NCBI GenBank assembly: GCA_944327085.1
Contig: CALVGG010000001.1
Span: 186,001 to 250,000 of the forward strand
Direction of reading: 5' to 3'
Length of the DNA stretch: 64,000 bases
Source of the DNA: an uncultured Elusimicrobiales bacterium
GTDB lineage: Bacteria; Elusimicrobiota; Elusimicrobia; Elusimicrobiales; Elusimicrobiaceae
Shown here: piece by piece, positions 15,430 through 30,861 of the stretch
Position numbering within the stretch: position 1 is the first letter of the stretch
Layout: each line of letters begins with the position of its first letter
Translations under genes and position numbers: made by a program
Notes under the pieces: model-generated
Database searches by the model: none
What the model was told of the DNA's origin: nothing
What the model saw: only the letters and a program-made list of their open reading frames with translations

Positions 15430-15619
15430 ATTTTTGCCATTTATTATCATAAATAAATATCCTTAAAAAATAAGGGTTTTCAATAAAATACGACGACAAA
15501 TTATTAGATTTTTATTTTTAAAATTTTTTTCGGAAATGCGGAAGCCATTTATCCATTAAAACCCCCTAATTAATGCTTTTAGAAAACTATTTTTCAACAA
15601 ATTGCTACAATGAAAGTAA

Positions 15620-15862
15620 CTTTTAAGGAGGACTGACGTTTAACATTATCTTTAACATTTTTACCCTGGCTTAGTGCCGCACAAACGGCACGCTTTTACG
15701 AAAGTAAAAGGAAACCAATACTAAGAAGGCCAATTAGCCGCAAGAAGGCAGGAAGTCATGAGCCTGCCGACTTACGGTCAATGTTATTTGCCATTTTGGT
15801 AAGTAACTACGGCTGTGTTTCTAATGCGTATTGGTTTCCATTGGAAATAACAGCCGTTTTTT
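15620..15862 (+). ncRNA. candidate structured non-coding RNA or attenuator before mcrBC
   Basis: About 240 nt without a plausible coding frame but with dense pairing. Seen: AAGGAGG at 15625-15631 not followed by a usable start codon; the 9-mer TTTAACATT twice (15639, 15651); hairpin GTGCCG/CGGCAC (15674-15691); a 7-bp hairpin capped by a GAAA tetraloop (15693-15710); hairpin GGCAGG/CCTGCC (15747-15768); ACTTAC/GTAAGT (15770-15804); an 11-12 bp perfect long-range stem between 15710-15721 and 15828-15839; and a terminator at 15809-15862. The long-range stem crosses the terminator stem, so they form either a pseudoknot or mutually exclusive states. It is either an independent small RNA or a regulator of the defence operon downstream. 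No known family was recognised. Confidence 0.6.
15809..15862 (+). terminator. terminator ending the RNA candidate
   Basis: ACGGCTGT (15809-15816) pairs with ACAGCCGT (15850-15857), followed by six T. The loop contains a small TTTCC/GGAAA hairpin (15835-15847) which competes with the long-range stem. Confidence 0.75.
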
Positions 15863-15936: not shown

Positions 15937-17916
15937 ATGCCTGAACAACAGTTTACTTGGTTACCATTTTTTAATGAAATGCTAACGGTAATTTGTAAAA
16001 ATTATACCCCGCAATCCCTTGCTTTGGTCTTTAAACGAATTTTTCCCAAACAACAAGATGAGGAGACTAAAGGGATAAAGACTGATTTTAAAGAAATTGA
16101 CCCGTTAACATTTATTGCTTGTTTTAATCGTAGCGAAACCAAAGAAAGCAGAGAGGCTTTTTGCAAAATAGCAAAAGAGGAATTGCATTTAAATGCTCCT
16201 ATTCCGACAGATTTTGATGGGATTCCCGTCTTTAACAATCAAAAAACCTGGTTTTTACAATACAGTTATCTGAGAGGGAAAAAAGATTGTGATATCCTTT
16301 GGAATTTTGCCCAAAATAGAGTTGAGTCCTTGCCTGTTACCAAAGAAGAAATGGAAAAATTGCTTTCCCTTGCCCATGTAGGATTAACCAAAATAAGCAG
16401 TTTTTTATTTATATGCTTTCCTAATCACTATTATCCGATAGATAAGAATACTTACACCTTTCTTGGACTAGCAAAAGAAGATAGCTTCCAATTTTTTGAA
16501 CAACTACAAAGGGTTGCTAAAGAAAAATATCCCCTAGATGCTCCTTATGAATTGTCATTTAAAGCTTGGAAGCAAGCAGAAGATAAAATTCGAGAAGGAG
16601 AATCACCTGTTTTCTGGGCTGTTGGGTCAGATTGGGGACGGGGGGACCAAGGAGACCAAATTCAGAGATTTATTCAAAATTCAATATGGGAATGTGGTTA
16701 CGGCGCGAATGGGAAAGACAAAAACAAAAAACGCTTAGAAGAGGTTAAGCCTGGAGATATCTTTGTATTAAAATCTTCCGCCACAATGGGGACAGGGCAC
16801 AAAACCCCTGTTACTATTATTAAAAATATAGGCATTGTGCAAAGCAAAAACACCTGGTGGTCTTTTAATGTAAACTGGCAAAACTTTCCCTCCCTACCAT
16901 ATAGGATCGAAGGAAAAGTCCTATGGGGGACCATTGCTCCTATTCAAGATTTAACTATTTTAGAGCTAGTCAAAAATTTAATGAACGAAAGTATATCTTC
17001 AATAAGGAAGGATCCTTCAAGCCCTAAATTTCCGCTCAACCAAATTCTCTACGGCCCGCCTGGAACTGGTAAAACCTATCACACCGTAACCAAAGCGGTA
17101 GAAATTATTGATGGAAAAGCTAACCCGAATTATGGCCTGGCCAAAGCCCGATTCGACGAACTGAAAAAACAGGGGAAAATTAAATTTATTACTTTCCACC
17201 AAAACTATTCCTACGAGGATTTTATGCTAGGAATCCGTCCCATGTTAAACGGAGAAAAGATTACCTACAAACTATATGAGGGTCCTTTCAAACAAATAGC
17301 AGACAAAGCCCGGGAAGATACCGGCAGTAACTATGTGCTAATAATTGATGAAATCAACCGCGGTAATATTTCCAAAATTTTTGGGGAACTTATTACGCTT
17401 ATAGAGGATGATAAACGGGCAGAGAACGACCATGCTATGTCAGCCCCGTTGCTCTACCAGCAAGCAGAGTTTAGCGTCCCCAATAATCTGTATATCATTG
17501 GCACTATGAATACGGCGGATAAATCCATCGCCCTGGTGGATATCGCTCTGCGCCGCCGGTTTGTGTTTGAAGAAATGATGCCGGACGAAAGCTTATTAAA
17601 ACCCATAGAAGGATTTGACTTGCCGGGCTGGTTTAAACGACTAAATGAAAAGATAACAGCCGAGTTAGACCGGGACCATCAAATCGGCCACAGCTACTTT
17701 ATGGAAGTGAAAAATAAGACAGAATTAAAACAAAAATTTTATCAGTGTATACTGCCCTTATTAAAAGAGTACTTCTACGGAAATCCAGAAAAGTTAAAAA
17801 CAATCATTCCTGGATTTGAACAGGAAAAACAGTTAGACAATGAAAAATTTATAGAAGTGTTAAACAGCATATTACATGATAAAACAAATAACGACCCAGG
17901 AATGGAAGAAGATTAG
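15937..17916 (+). CDS. mcrB: McrB-like AAA+ motor of a type IV restriction system
   Basis: 659 residues. The C-terminal AAA+ domain has Walker A LYGPPGTGKT (about 369-378), Walker B LIIDEINRG (about 468-476) and the NTADKSIALVDIALRRRF sensor/arginine segment (about 525-542), all typical of McrB. The N-terminal half has a helical region (1-215) and then a segment starting FWAVGSDWG (about 226-340) with VLKSS and W-rich strands that looks like an EVE/PUA-like domain, a fold that reads modified bases. The complex with McrC cuts DNA carrying modified bases after nucleotide-driven translocation. It overlaps mcrC by 41 nt. The N-terminal domain assignment is by eye. Confidence 0.9.
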   Translation: MPEQQFTWLPFFNEMLTVICKNYTPQSLALVFKRIFPKQQDEETKGIKTDFKEIDPLTFIACFNRSETKESREAFCKIAKEELHLNAPIPTDFDGIPVFNNQKTWFLQYSYLRGKKDCDILWNFAQNRVESLPVTKEEMEKLLSLAHVGLTKISSFLFICFPNHYYPIDKNTYTFLGLAKEDSFQFFEQLQRVAKEKYPLDAPYELSFKAWKQAEDKIREGESPVFWAVGSDWGRGDQGDQIQRFIQNSIWECGYGANGKDKNKKRLEEVKPGDIFVLKSSATMGTGHKTPVTIIKNIGIVQSKNTWWSFNVNWQNFPSLPYRIEGKVLWGTIAPIQDLTILELVKNLMNESISSIRKDPSSPKFPLNQILYGPPGTGKTYHTVTKAVEIIDGKANPNYGLAKARFDELKKQGKIKFITFHQNYSYEDFMLGIRPMLNGEKITYKLYEGPFKQIADKAREDTGSNYVLIIDEINRGNISKIFGELITLIEDDKRAENDHAMSAPLLYQQAEFSVPNNLYIIGTMNTADKSIALVDIALRRRFVFEEMMPDESLLKPIEGFDLPGWFKRLNEKITAELDRDHQIGHSYFMEVKNKTELKQKFYQCILPLLKEYFYGNPEKLKTIIPGFEQEKQLDNEKFIEVLNSILHDKTNNDPGMEED

Positions 17917-19078
17917 CTATGCGGAGCTGGGGCTCAATCAAGAGCAGGCCAAATCTTTCAAAAATTTTTTGGAGGATAAGGGTTTAACAACCGTTCTGGA
18001 TTTTCAGTTGGACGGCATTAAAACCGAGGCCTACGTCGGAAGTATTCGTTTTGCTGATTTTCAATTAAACATTCTCCCCAAAATTATTGGGGGGAATGAC
18101 TCTTCGTGTCTGGAAAATCTGATGTTTATGCTCCGCTACACTAAAAAATTAGAAATTCATACGATAGACAGTGCAGAAATCAGCAAAACGAAACAGCCTT
18201 TTCTAGAAATCTTAATTGCTCACTATGCCAATATATTATTAAACGCGCTGCAGCGGCACATTCCCCATCACTATGAAACAAAAGAAGAGAACCTATCTGC
18301 CGTTCGCGGGCGTATCTTATTTGCAGAAAACCAGCTGGTGAATATGGGAAATTTAGCCCGCGTATATTGCCAGTTTGATGAATTTACTTCTGACAATTTG
18401 CTTAACCAAACTTTTAAGTTTGTAGCTCAGGCTTTGTGCCTTCTAACGGCTGTACCTGCCACTAGAGCCCGCTTAAATAAAATTTTAGCTATTTATGAAG
18501 ATGTCGAATTGAGGGCCATTTCCTATGTGCAAGCCAAAAAGATTTTGCTCAATCGGAACCAATTAATTTTTAAAGACGTTTTAGATTTGGCCCTTTTATT
18601 CTTACAACACAGTACGATTAGCCTGCATAATAAAACTTTTACCAATTTAGCCATTTTATTTGATATGAATAAACTGTTTGAAGAGTTTGTGGCTGCGGCT
18701 TTGGAAAAAGCTTTCCCGGGACAAGTGCAAACCCAAAAATCACTAACCATCATTGATAGTATTAACGGCTATACCAACACCAGTTACAGTATACGGCCTG
18801 ATATCCTGTTCCGAAATGACACCATCATTGATACCAAATATAAAATTTTAGACTTACCCGATAATAAACCATCTGAGGCTGACATTTATCAAATGCTGGC
18901 CTACAATCGCTTTTTTAACCGGCAAAACATTATTCTATGTTATCCGACTTTTAAACAAAATTGTTGTCAGAATATATTTTGGGCAGAAAATGCCATTATG
19001 TTAAGTATACTTACAATAAATCTCAGAGAAGCCTCAGAAGGAACCGACCTCCTCCTAAGAAATTTTCGGTTTTTATAA
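17876..19078 (+). CDS. mcrC: McrC-like endonuclease subunit
   Basis: 400 residues. The N-terminal part (to about 130) is the McrC beta-rich region that contacts the McrB ring. The C-terminal PD-(D/E)xK nuclease is visible as SIRPDILFRNDTIIDTKYK (about 304-322), with YQMLAYNRFF following at about 341-350. The start is inside mcrB, which ensures coupled synthesis. Upstream in-frame alternatives were not found. It provides the cleavage activity and stimulates the McrB motor. No transcription stop is seen before the OLD-like gene 83 nt later, so the four defence genes may share a transcript. Confidence 0.9.
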   Translation: MIKQITTQEWKKISYAELGLNQEQAKSFKNFLEDKGLTTVLDFQLDGIKTEAYVGSIRFADFQLNILPKIIGGNDSSCLENLMFMLRYTKKLEIHTIDSAEISKTKQPFLEILIAHYANILLNALQRHIPHHYETKEENLSAVRGRILFAENQLVNMGNLARVYCQFDEFTSDNLLNQTFKFVAQALCLLTAVPATRARLNKILAIYEDVELRAISYVQAKKILLNRNQLIFKDVLDLALLFLQHSTISLHNKTFTNLAILFDMNKLFEEFVAAALEKAFPGQVQTQKSLTIIDSINGYTNTSYSIRPDILFRNDTIIDTKYKILDLPDNKPSEADIYQMLAYNRFFNRQNIILCYPTFKQNCCQNIFWAENAIMLSILTINLREASEGTDLLLRNFRFL

Positions 19079-19161: not shown

Positions 19162-20997
19162 ATGTATTTAGAAACTTTAAACCTATGGAATTTTAGAAAA
19201 TTTGGGAGTTTAGAAAACTCAACGTCATTAGATTTGGACAAGCCTCACTTCTCCATCAAATTAAAACCAGGTTTAAATATTTTCGTTGGAGAAAATGACT
19301 CTGGTAAAAGTTCCGCTATTGATGCTATTAAATTGCTATTAAAAACACATAGCGGAGAATGGATATCCCTAAAAGAAGAAGATTTTTTCCAGGGAGCAAA
19401 AACATTAAGAATTGAATGTACTTTCAAAGATTTAAGGGATGAAGAAGCAAGTTGCTTCCTGGAGTGGCTATCTTGGGACGAACAGACAAAAACCCCTTTT
19501 CTAAAAATATTTCTTCAAGCAAGCCTGAAAGAACGAATAATATCACCCGACATCCGAGCAGGAAATGATAAAGAGGGTACTATTTTACCTGCCGAAGTAC
19601 GAGAACTTCTTAGAACCACATATTTAAAACCTTTGCGAGATGCAACAAATGAACTGGTCCCCAGAAGAAACTCTCGTTTATCACAAATTCTCAAAGGGCG
19701 TAAAGAGTTCATCGAGATTTCAGAAGACAGACATCCTTTGATAAAATCCTCCATATGTTTAAATTGTTTAATCAAACAATATTTCGATAGTTCCTATCAA
19801 GAAGAGAAATGCCCTGTTGATAACGGAGATGCCTGTTTATGTAAAGGTCTTCGGAATTCTGATGGTTACGAGATATTTAAGACTTTAAATACTTTTCTGA
19901 ATGATTTTTTTGGCACCCCTCGGCAAGCTACTTTTGAAGTAAATACACCTTCTATCAAAAGCATTCTTGAAACCTTAAGACTAGCTTTTGAAGACGAAAA
20001 GGCAGGACTTGGAACACATAATATATTATTTATTGCAACAGAACTTTTGAACCTCATAAGAAAAGATTTTGTAGGCCTAAAAATAGGCTTAATTGAGGAA
20101 ATAGAAGCGCATATACATCCTCAAGCACAAATGAGAATTATTTCCCATTTACAGAATCTCTGTTCCAAAGAAACTGATTTGCAACTTATTATTTCTACAC
20201 ATAGTCCGAACATTGCATCCAAAGTCTTGTTAGAAAATATTTTTCTATTTGATGGAGAGAGAGCTTTTTCTCTAGCTCCAGAATTTACAAATCTTCAACA
20301 AGAAGATTACCGCTTCTTAGAATGCTTCCTTGATGTAACAAAAGCTAATCTCTTTTTTGCTCATGGACTCATACTGGTAGAAGGTTGGGCGGAACAAATT
20401 TTGCTTCCTGTATTAGCTAAAAAAATTGATATCGATTTAACGCAAAAAGGTATTTCTATAATAAATGTAGGAGGAGTGGCTTTCTTACGCTATGTAAAAA
20501 TTTTTCAAAGAAAAGATAACGAACAGCCCTCAATTAATATTCCGATATCTGTCGTAACAGACTTAGATGTGAAACCGGATGAATATGCATTCAAAAAAGA
20601 TGCAAAAAACCAAGAAACTATAAAGGACTACGATATCTCTCAAAAAATAAAAGAAAAAGGATGCGCATTTAATGCAGAACGAATACAAACATTTGTTTCC
20701 CCGGTGTGGACCTTGGAGTATTGTTTGGCAAAAAACGAAAGTATTTTCCCTTTCATTTTAGAGCTTTCCCAAAACTTCCTCTCAAACCAGGCATACAAAG
20801 AACTAACTGAAAAAATTAAGCAAAATCCTAATGATAAAGCTTGCATTTTGATTCAAACTCTCTTTAAGAATAAAGTTTCCAAAACGCAACTGGCTTATGA
20901 TTTGGCAAACAGAATAGAATCCGCCGATACTATTGATACTGGAAACCAATATACCCAATACTTATTTAAAGCAATTAGATATGCTGCCAATTCCTGA
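19162..20997 (+). CDS. gajA: OLD-family ATPase-TOPRIM nuclease, GajA-like
   Basis: 611 residues. The ABC-type ATPase domain opens with YLETLNLWNFRKF and Walker A FVGENDSGKSS (41-51); the D-loop/Walker B region is GLIEEIEAHIHPQAQ (about 308-322) with the STHSP switch near 350. The TOPRIM domain follows: ILVEGWAEQILLP (about 403-415) and TDLDVKPDE (about 467-475). This ATPase plus TOPRIM order, with a UvrD-like helicase next door, is the Gabija arrangement (class 2 OLD). A Cys-rich insert at about 198-236 (ICLNCL ... KCPVDNGDACLC) is unusual and may bind zinc. In Gabija, GajA nicks DNA when nucleotide levels fall during infection. It overlaps the helicase gene. Confidence 0.82.
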   Translation: MYLETLNLWNFRKFGSLENSTSLDLDKPHFSIKLKPGLNIFVGENDSGKSSAIDAIKLLLKTHSGEWISLKEEDFFQGAKTLRIECTFKDLRDEEASCFLEWLSWDEQTKTPFLKIFLQASLKERIISPDIRAGNDKEGTILPAEVRELLRTTYLKPLRDATNELVPRRNSRLSQILKGRKEFIEISEDRHPLIKSSICLNCLIKQYFDSSYQEEKCPVDNGDACLCKGLRNSDGYEIFKTLNTFLNDFFGTPRQATFEVNTPSIKSILETLRLAFEDEKAGLGTHNILFIATELLNLIRKDFVGLKIGLIEEIEAHIHPQAQMRIISHLQNLCSKETDLQLIISTHSPNIASKVLLENIFLFDGERAFSLAPEFTNLQQEDYRFLECFLDVTKANLFFAHGLILVEGWAEQILLPVLAKKIDIDLTQKGISIINVGGVAFLRYVKIFQRKDNEQPSINIPISVVTDLDVKPDEYAFKKDAKNQETIKDYDISQKIKEKGCAFNAERIQTFVSPVWTLEYCLAKNESIFPFILELSQNFLSNQAYKELTEKIKQNPNDKACILIQTLFKNKVSKTQLAYDLANRIESADTIDTGNQYTQYLFKAIRYAANS

Positions 20998-22855
20998 CCA
21001 GGAGATAGATAAAATTACGCCTTTATTACTCCCTCCAAACTGCAGTTTTGATGAGGAAAGAAAGTCTTTTATTAAAAATTTGGATACCATTGACTGCCAA
21101 GCTGTTCCAGGCAGCGGAAAAACAACAGCTCTTTTAGCAAAATTGTTACTACTAGAGAAGCACCTGCCTCTAGAACAAAATCGCGGCATTTTAGTTCTAT
21201 CCCACACAAACACCGCGATTAAACTTTTGCACTCAAAACTAGATAATAAATGCAATTTTATATTTAAATGTCCCAATTTCATTGGGACTATACAATCTTT
21301 TGTAGACCAATTTTTAGCTATACCCTTTTATACACAAACATATCAACATAGGCCTTTATATATAGATAGCGAATTTGCAAAAAACGCCATTGTATGTCTG
21401 TGTCCTCCATACTTAAATAAAATATTAGACAGAAAACCTATGAAAAAAGATGAAATTCTTTTTCAAACGGGACTACTCCACGGGAAATTAACCCACTATG
21501 ATAAAGACCCTTTTTATTATAAAGAAACGACTTCTACCTACCAGTCCATTCTAAACCTTAAAAACAATCAGTACAAAAAGGGAATTCTTTTTTATGATGA
21601 TGCATACCTGCTAGCTCAAGAATATATTGAAAAACACCCTAAAATACTAGATATTATACGATTAAGATTCAAATATATCTTTGTTGATGAAATGCAAGAT
21701 ATGAATCAAACTCAGATAGAACTATTGGAAAAATTATTTAATCATCCGACAGTAGTATATCAAAGAATCGGAGATATTAATCAGAGTATTTTTAATAAAG
21801 TGCAAAGCAATAAAATATGGGAATTCAGAGGCGCCCCTTTAATTTTACACAAAACCCTGCGGCTTTCAGCACAAATTGCTCCGATAGTGGAACGCTTTTC
21901 ATTATATCAAGACATAGATCATAGTATTGTATCTATACGACAATCTAATATTCCTCCGTATTTGTTTATATATACCTCTTCTACAATCAAAAAAGTTTTA
22001 TCACACTTTGTACAAAAAATAAAACAGCACAATTTACAAAATAAAAAAGCAATATTTAAAGCAATTGCCTGGGTAGCAGAAAAAAAGGAAAACTGCCTTA
22101 CCTTATCGGATTACTTTCCCACTTTTAGCAAAGAAATTAAGACAGAACATAATCATATTGATTCTATAAGCGAAGCGATAGAACTAATTCGTCAAAAATC
22201 AGAAAATACTAATGATTTCAATTCTATTTTTAAAATTATTACACAGGTTTGTTTAGAAATACTTCGTTTGGAAAATATTACTAACTCTCAAACAAATACT
22301 TATTATTCATATCTTTCTTTTTGGAAAGCAGTAAAAGAAAATCCTGAAAATTTTTTATTGAGAAAACAGATATATTCTTTGTGCCAAAAGGCTTTTGCAA
22401 AATCTTTAATTACAATATCTGATTTTGATAAGATTTTATCAACTTTAGAAAAAATATTTAATTTTGAATCTTCCGAATCTACTTTAAACTTTAGGAACAA
22501 TACCATCGGCTCCATATTGAGCAAAGAACCAAATCTTCCGCCCAAAAATATTTTTTCTTTAGATGGAATAAATATAGAAATTGGCACAATACATAGCGTT
22601 AAAGGAGAAACACATACAGCCACACTGGTAATGGAAACCAAATACTATACCACTGAGTCGCAAAAAATCCTCAATATTTTAAAAGGGCAAGAAATAAAGC
22701 AACCCAAAACACGCGAAGCTGAAGCTATGAAAATGTTATATGTAGCCATGAGCCGTCCTACTGATTTATTATGCTTTGCATGTAACGAGGAATATATTCG
22801 AGGCCACGAAAAAGAAATAGAGAAAGCTGGATGGAAAATAGAAAAAATATCCTGA
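20981..22855 (+). CDS. gajB: UvrD-like helicase, GajB-like
   Basis: 624 residues from the ATG at 20981 (17-nt overlap with gajA); a TTG at 20933 in the same frame would add 16 residues. SF1 helicase motifs: Walker A AVPGSGKTTAL (about 39-49), motif II VDEMQDMN (about 234-241), GDINQSIF (motif III, about 265-272), the IHSVKGETHTATL segment (about 535-547) and YVAMSRPTDLL (motif VI, about 586-596). The family unwinds DNA; in Gabija, GajB supports GajA. Larger than the first described GajB. The gene is very AT-rich (A-rich codons) like its partner, consistent with transfer as a unit. Confidence 0.8.
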   Translation: MLPIPDQEIDKITPLLLPPNCSFDEERKSFIKNLDTIDCQAVPGSGKTTALLAKLLLLEKHLPLEQNRGILVLSHTNTAIKLLHSKLDNKCNFIFKCPNFIGTIQSFVDQFLAIPFYTQTYQHRPLYIDSEFAKNAIVCLCPPYLNKILDRKPMKKDEILFQTGLLHGKLTHYDKDPFYYKETTSTYQSILNLKNNQYKKGILFYDDAYLLAQEYIEKHPKILDIIRLRFKYIFVDEMQDMNQTQIELLEKLFNHPTVVYQRIGDINQSIFNKVQSNKIWEFRGAPLILHKTLRLSAQIAPIVERFSLYQDIDHSIVSIRQSNIPPYLFIYTSSTIKKVLSHFVQKIKQHNLQNKKAIFKAIAWVAEKKENCLTLSDYFPTFSKEIKTEHNHIDSISEAIELIRQKSENTNDFNSIFKIITQVCLEILRLENITNSQTNTYYSYLSFWKAVKENPENFLLRKQIYSLCQKAFAKSLITISDFDKILSTLEKIFNFESSESTLNFRNNTIGSILSKEPNLPPKNIFSLDGINIEIGTIHSVKGETHTATLVMETKYYTTESQKILNILKGQEIKQPKTREAEAMKMLYVAMSRPTDLLCFACNEEYIRGHEKEIEKAGWKIEKIS

Positions 22856-30721: not shown

Positions 30722-30861
30722 GGGTTGTACTCCTCCTTGTTTGTTACACCAAACCCACTATATCAAAAAAAAAACAATGCAATGCCTATGCAAATAGATA
30801 CTTTAAAACAAAATAAATATTTCCCGGTCCAGCAGCCTGAAAATTTCATTGCATAAAAATT

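Follow-up and report, generated by a model that had tools for sequence, protein, structure and literature searches.

What is the strongly folded stretch of about 240 nt that lies just upstream of a McrBC–Gabija operon in this 64-kb Elusimicrobiota window (the whole stretch of DNA analysed here), and does it bear on expression of that operon? The element occupies positions 15618-15862 of the + strand, to which all features described below belong unless otherwise indicated. The minimum free energy (MFE) of the interval was −79.6 kcal/mol, compared with −55.9 ± 4.6 kcal/mol for dinucleotide shuffles (z −5.2; 0 of 200 shuffles). The reverse strand was less structured (z −3.7) and carried no recognised signal. 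The hairpins, GAAA loop, long-range stem and terminator listed in a preliminary description of this DNA were all found at the positions that it had given. The fold begins with P1 (15667-15672 paired with 15727-15732), which closes a junction containing hairpins P2 (15674-15691) and P3 (15693-15710, with a GAAA loop in the window copy). Hairpins P4 (15737-15778, apical loop AAGUCAUGAG) and P6 (15783-15807) follow, and the element ends in an intrinsic terminator (15809-15862), whose stem P7 pairs 15809-15816 with 15850-15857, is extended inward by P8, and leads into a U-run at 15857-15862. A simple terminator scan misses P7 because its loop exceeds 8 nt.

A probable promoter, read by inspection of the sequence, lies at 15603-15611, where there is an extended −10 element (TGCTACAAT), with the transcript start expected near 15618; a consensus promoter scan of the window did not include 15603-15611 among its calls. 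Other copies of the element have TGNTATAAT/TATACT upstream of P1 at a variable distance. The region upstream of P1 folded better than its shuffled counterpart (−5.3 versus −2.4 kcal/mol); many copies have a small hairpin here, P0, followed by a conserved ACAATTTAAT. Many copies also have a Shine-Dalgarno-like AAGGAG upstream of P1 (e.g., 15626-15634 in the window, and loci L064 and L054), after which the position of a start codon is inconsistent. A leader peptide behind AAGGAG was considered and rejected, as the upstream sequences inspected held no consistent open reading frame.

The preliminary description recognised no known family, and this holds: searches of Rfam 15 with the window copy and other copies gave nothing at the gathering threshold, and only chance-level matches when relaxed to an E-value of 10. 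BLASTN recovered four near-identical orthologues, one of them truncated inside P4, plus diverged copies in other contexts. A covariance model built from six sequences (R1) matched 62 of the 66 species of the window's genus and only two of the 64 genera in the class, including a sister genus. A second model built from 100 copies (R2) added strong matches (best E-value 2.2e-42) in one family that belongs to another class of the phylum and likewise includes multi-copy genomes. The number of copies in a genome ranged from one to at least 131, the latter in the 1.7-Mb genome G020; G024 had 46, G085 had 50 and the window's own genome had four. Searched against named genomes, a loop-plus-terminator pattern matched 17 times, always in gut Elusimicrobia MAGs, and the family is so far confined to Elusimicrobiota. 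Two loop-type patterns found no copies of the RNA in viral contigs, so that it is not an evident phage element. To our knowledge, few leader RNAs reach a copy number as high as 131 or more in 1.7 Mb.

Covariation was assessed in 98 distinct homologous copies. Pairing was possible in 94.6% of cells in this set, versus 76.5% after shuffling, and the covariation score was 0.550, versus 0.208 for shuffled and about 0.1 for slid controls. Changes on both sides were seen at 56 of 62 pairs, including 6/6 in P2, 7/7 in P3 and 11/11 in P6, and P1 and P4 were likewise supported by covariation as well as by the fold; the covariance analysis that the preliminary description had proposed thus gave a strongly positive answer. 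Compensatory change across homologues is the pattern expected of a conserved structured RNA. The conserved architecture is P1(P2,P3)-P4-P6-P7, with the intrinsic terminator shortly upstream of a start codon and the U-run ending the element in nearly all copies. Comparison of the copies establishes a real, covarying, multi-copy and previously uncatalogued RNA family, apparently representing a new class of regulatory RNA in bacteria. Several departures from the common form were seen. In two variant leaders (upstream of 9061 in L088, and at 782-955 in L140), one hairpin replaces P4 and P6, with a private long-range stem and the terminator kept. A search for altered terminator arms, intended as a more stringent check of the antiterminator pairing described below, relied on noisy automatic detection; its two clear variants, the L088 leader just named and L140/L180, both keep the private stem. 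A tandem pair of leaders precedes an EcoRI-type methylase in the other class (L196/L209), and in G061 a leader truncated inside P4 (L012, 1501-1671) lies beside another gene.

The long-range stem, which both covariance models left out, is private to almost every copy. In the window copy it is a perfect 12-bp helix formed by 15710-15721 and 15828-15839, the latter strand lying within the apical loop of the terminator hairpin, so that the stem crosses the terminator stem. A stem of 10-12 bp is present in about 97% of copies, yet its sequence is nearly unrelated between copies and differs in nearly every one: the stems were all mutually different among the 32 G020 copies and the 22 G024 copies examined. 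The two strands nonetheless match within each copy, with a mean duplex energy of −15.4 kcal/mol for a copy's own strands versus −6.3 kcal/mol for strands swapped between copies (Z −40). The same was true of held-out genomes (own −16.1 versus swapped −6.7 kcal/mol; stem in 18 of 20 copies) and of the other class of the phylum (own −14.4 versus swapped −5.6 kcal/mol; stem in 24 of 31 copies). Compensatory change in this stem is what the preliminary description had named as support. Off-target pairing among the private stems equalled that of shuffled stems, indicating no avoidance of cross-talk and hence no orthogonality selected beyond diversity itself.

The strands around the stem suggest how it might act. 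The 3' strand of P1, extended at its 3' side (P1', CCAAAAACAG-YCG in most copies), is complementary both to the 5' strand of P1 and to the 5' arm of the terminator (CGGCUGUUU), with mean duplex energies of −12.8 and −13.1 kcal/mol, respectively. The three nucleotides past P1' have no use in P1 itself, and complement CGG (as UCG, CCG or CUG) in 81 of 96 copies, versus 2.8 expected. We call the pairing of this extension with the terminator arm AT; in the window it joins 15735-15740 to 15810-15815, and its own-versus-swapped comparison gave Z values of about −5 to −6. Such dual use of strands explains the fixed sequences of P1 (which reads CUGUUUUUGG/CCAAAAACAG in most copies) and P7, in contrast to the variable remaining helices. 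The window copy departs from the common form here: its P1 and AT have 6 bp each, are weaker and shifted, and stand apart. The private stem and AT are nested, with P4 and P6 enclosed. The crossing of stem and terminator noted in the preliminary description is therefore real, but it is not a mere crossing: the stem and the 15735-15740/15810-15815 pairing together make a nested antiterminator that excludes the terminator.

Folding with nearest-neighbour energies was in keeping with two exclusive states. When the private stem was forced, P7 was absent and AT was formed in all 96 copies; unconstrained folds contained the terminator in 89 of 96, on average 6.0 kcal/mol below the stem-forced fold. 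When the transcript stopped before the 3' arm of the terminator, the stem was within the MFE structure in 91 of 96. In these models, the pattern is the signature of a kinetic antiterminator. Because the static MFE favors the terminated state in 89 of 96 copies, the ON state would need kinetics or a factor. During transcription of the leader, the first structures to form would be the long-range stem and the pairing of P1' with the terminator arm (antiterminator, ON); once the 3' arm of the terminator has been made, the more stable P1 and P7 could take over (terminated, OFF). The balance between the two would set transcription into the McrBC–Gabija genes here and into pilin, restriction and surface genes elsewhere.

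An intrinsic terminator lying between a promoter (as read by inspection) and a start codon, and a conserved alternative helix that excludes it, are the features by which an attenuator is recognised. We therefore consider it probable that the element is a cis-acting transcription attenuator, serving the downstream operon as its 5' leader and belonging to a large multi-copy Elusimicrobiota family; attenuation itself is inferred from sequence. Of the roles suggested earlier, a switch in which the stem competes with the terminator and permits read-through into the operon is well supported by covariation, by the exclusive folds and by the constant position shortly upstream of genes. Several observations count against this reading, among them the terminated static MFE and the weaker, shifted P1 and AT of the window copy. 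The evidence for AT is mostly conserved complementarity and not covariation; mcrB, which starts 75 nt past the terminator, may have a promoter of its own in a TATACT at about 15897; and in G049 (L014) a mcrB homologue occupies the same place with no recognisable leader, so that this operon can do without the RNA. Attenuators, T-boxes and transcriptional riboswitches are similar in being 5' leaders with two exclusive folds and an intrinsic terminator before the gene. The present family differs from them in lacking an Rfam match, in having an antiterminator stem that differs in nearly every copy, in reaching at least 131 copies in one genome, and in its palindromic loop.

The first gene downstream in the window encodes a McrB-like AAA ATPase (15937-17916), with its start codon 75 nt past the terminator; mcrC (17876-19078; Pfam McrBC, 1.3e-64) and the Gabija genes gajA (19162-20997; PADLOC GajA, 3.6e-197) and gajB (20933-22855; PADLOC GajB, 1.7e-177) follow. 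Elsewhere the downstream genes are mostly of another kind. A type IV pilin gene follows on the same strand in 68 of 100 copies, mostly with 28-37 nt (about 33) to the start codon, and one further copy before a pilin gene, missed by the motif, was found at L082. Most of the remainder lie before restriction/defence or cell-surface genes. Where the gene was readable, it was a defence gene (McrB in the window, elsewhere EcoRI-type methylase, GmrSD or HSDR-N-like) or a gene for a glycosyltransferase, LicD, a sulfatase-like membrane protein, a lipoprotein, a secreted protein or another product. In the other class, inspection by eye identified an EcoRI-type methylase, a methyltransferase-like gene, a pilin, lipoproteins and secreted proteins. 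The suggestion of a defence trigger or decoy is not supported by this distribution, with about 70% of copies in front of pilin genes and others in front of surface or secreted-protein genes; the RNA is not defence-specific, and the window's defence operon is one client among many. Nor were homologues tied to a ParB-methyltransferase/terminase core, as had been supposed; that core is a local upstream neighbour here only. One type of switch would link immune systems and surface appendages, and the McrBC–Gabija operon may be conditionally transcribed.

The apical loop of P4 has a feature of its own. In the window it contains the palindrome TCATGA (15756-15761), and a 6-nt palindrome was present in 22 of 29 distinct P4 loops, versus a mean of 2.0 and a maximum of 7 in 1000 shuffles. 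The palindromes differ between copies (UAAUUA, UUAUAA, UCAUGA, UUGCAA, UUCGAA, CUCGAG, UGUACA), the commonest loop length being 9 nt; the loops of P2, P3 and P6 had none. P4 palindromes recurred in further genomes and in the other class, and groups of copies within one genome have palindromic loops in common. Self-complementarity kept through sequence change is what a kissing loop would show, and we predict that leaders dimerize via P4. Two leaders, or a terminated and a nascent one, could kiss and so bias the switch. The symmetric kissing loops of OLE RNA were likewise inferred from palindrome switching, its L9.3 loop being GGCC, GAUC or AGCU (PMC12286853); these tetranucleotides also occur in the present family. 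In the HIV-1 DIS, too, an apical loop contains a 6-nt palindrome (PMC7357161); the loop of the present family is most often 9 nt. As in OLE, ROOL and GOLLD RNAs and HIV-1 DIS, symmetric kissing is inferred from covarying palindromes; unlike those, the present RNA is a small cis leader that ends in a terminator, and its oligomerization is a prediction.

These features could also belong to an RNA of another kind. GEMM-I riboswitches stand in front of pilin genes, with several copies per genome. The family resembles these c-di-GMP/cGAMP riboswitches in placing pilus and surface genes under leader control, and its regulon resembles theirs (PMC6366702, PMC8835794). A metabolite-sensing riboswitch, in which the P1-P2-P3 junction is the aptamer and a small molecule such as a second messenger sets the balance, is accordingly a credible if clearly less favored reading, and both the architecture, which is that of riboswitch expression platforms, and the strong conservation of the 5' segment ACAAUUUAAU-CUGUUUUUGGA fit it. 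Yet the riboswitch models of Rfam, T-box and GEMM included, give no match even at an E-value of 10; the GEMM-I architecture is different and its covariance model finds no match in this family; dual pairing accounts for the conserved letters of P1 and P7; P2, P3 and P4 covary as stems and show no obvious invariant pocket; and it would be unusual for one ligand to act through more than 131 copies, each with its own switch helix. It seems rather unlikely that the element is mainly a trans-acting small RNA, with the terminated 240-nt leader as the product that kisses others via P4 and coordinates the family. The MFE structure is the terminated state, and the covarying palindromic loops common to groups of copies in one genome would suit such a role, but the antiterminator pairing would be purposeless in a pure small RNA, and the constant spacing of ~33 nt to the start codon implies that the genes need read-through. 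Some action of the terminated RNA in trans may still occur, given the palindromic P4 loops.

The apparent mobility of units made of the RNA and its gene raises a different question, whether the element chiefly serves a gene cassette as a signal for mobility or recombination, with the RNA fold secondary. The clearest case is the junction of guaD and rsmE, which are 0-18 bp apart in six species (occupied and empty sites were compared at L135, L140 and L136-L143). In G020 (L135), about 857 bp comprising RNA and pilin gene lies exactly between them, and in G056 (L140) that point is taken by a different RNA-pilin unit, oriented the other way. The window and three other species share the RNA at 99% identity, but among them the gene right after the terminator changes from McrBC–Gabija to GmrSD. 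The leader seems either to travel with accessory genes or to stay while they are swapped. Such occupied and empty sites, the swapping directly past the terminator, and copy numbers from one to at least 131 all point toward a cassette signal, which we nevertheless regard as improbable. There are no tandem arrays, the single site read shows no target-site duplication, neither a linked recombinase nor a linked transposase was identified, and the insertion ends fall outside the RNA; G-U covariation, the intrinsic terminator and the upstream promoters favor an RNA function. An integron cassette (attC) finds no support either: the copies form no tandem cassette array and are scattered among housekeeping genes, mostly at distances of several kb. 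An inverton, with the private repeat flanking an invertible segment, would explain the private 10-12-bp inverted repeats of each copy and the quasi-palindromic inner segment. It is hardly credible, because it leaves the perfect private complementarity and the covariation of every other helix unexplained, and because none of 96 distinct copies, searched in both orientations by their P4 loops, was reversed; DNA inversion was rejected on this basis.

Two questions become testable with this family: whether one cell can run more than 100 near-orthogonal copies of one RNA switch, and whether covarying palindromic loops in small leaders form dimers that regulate transcription. A speculative extension, to which we give only limited credence, is a genome-wide network in which more than 100 leaders with private antiterminators interact through palindromic P4 kissing loops, terminated and nascent leaders of the same loop type pairing so that only part of the repertoire is expressed in a given cell. 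If true, this would be an RNA-level counterpart of phase variation for the pilin, defence and surface repertoire. Leaders were present at 29 of 50 pilin genes in G020, 21 of 31 in G024 and 5 of 9 in G085, in the parts sampled. Most leaderless pilin genes in the sampled genomes had a T9-T16 tract within or beside a promoter of the TTGAC type, and these look like slippage-based phase-variable promoters. The pilin repertoire thus appears to be under contingency-type control as well, as in phase-variable surface-gene repertoires with homopolymer promoters; the RNA leader differs in that it is predicted to switch at the RNA level. In the window, a poly-T tract lies at 30759-30774 on the − strand, upstream of a pilin gene at about 30706, and poly-T pilin promoters were also seen at L079, L081, L084-L086, L088 and L094-L097.
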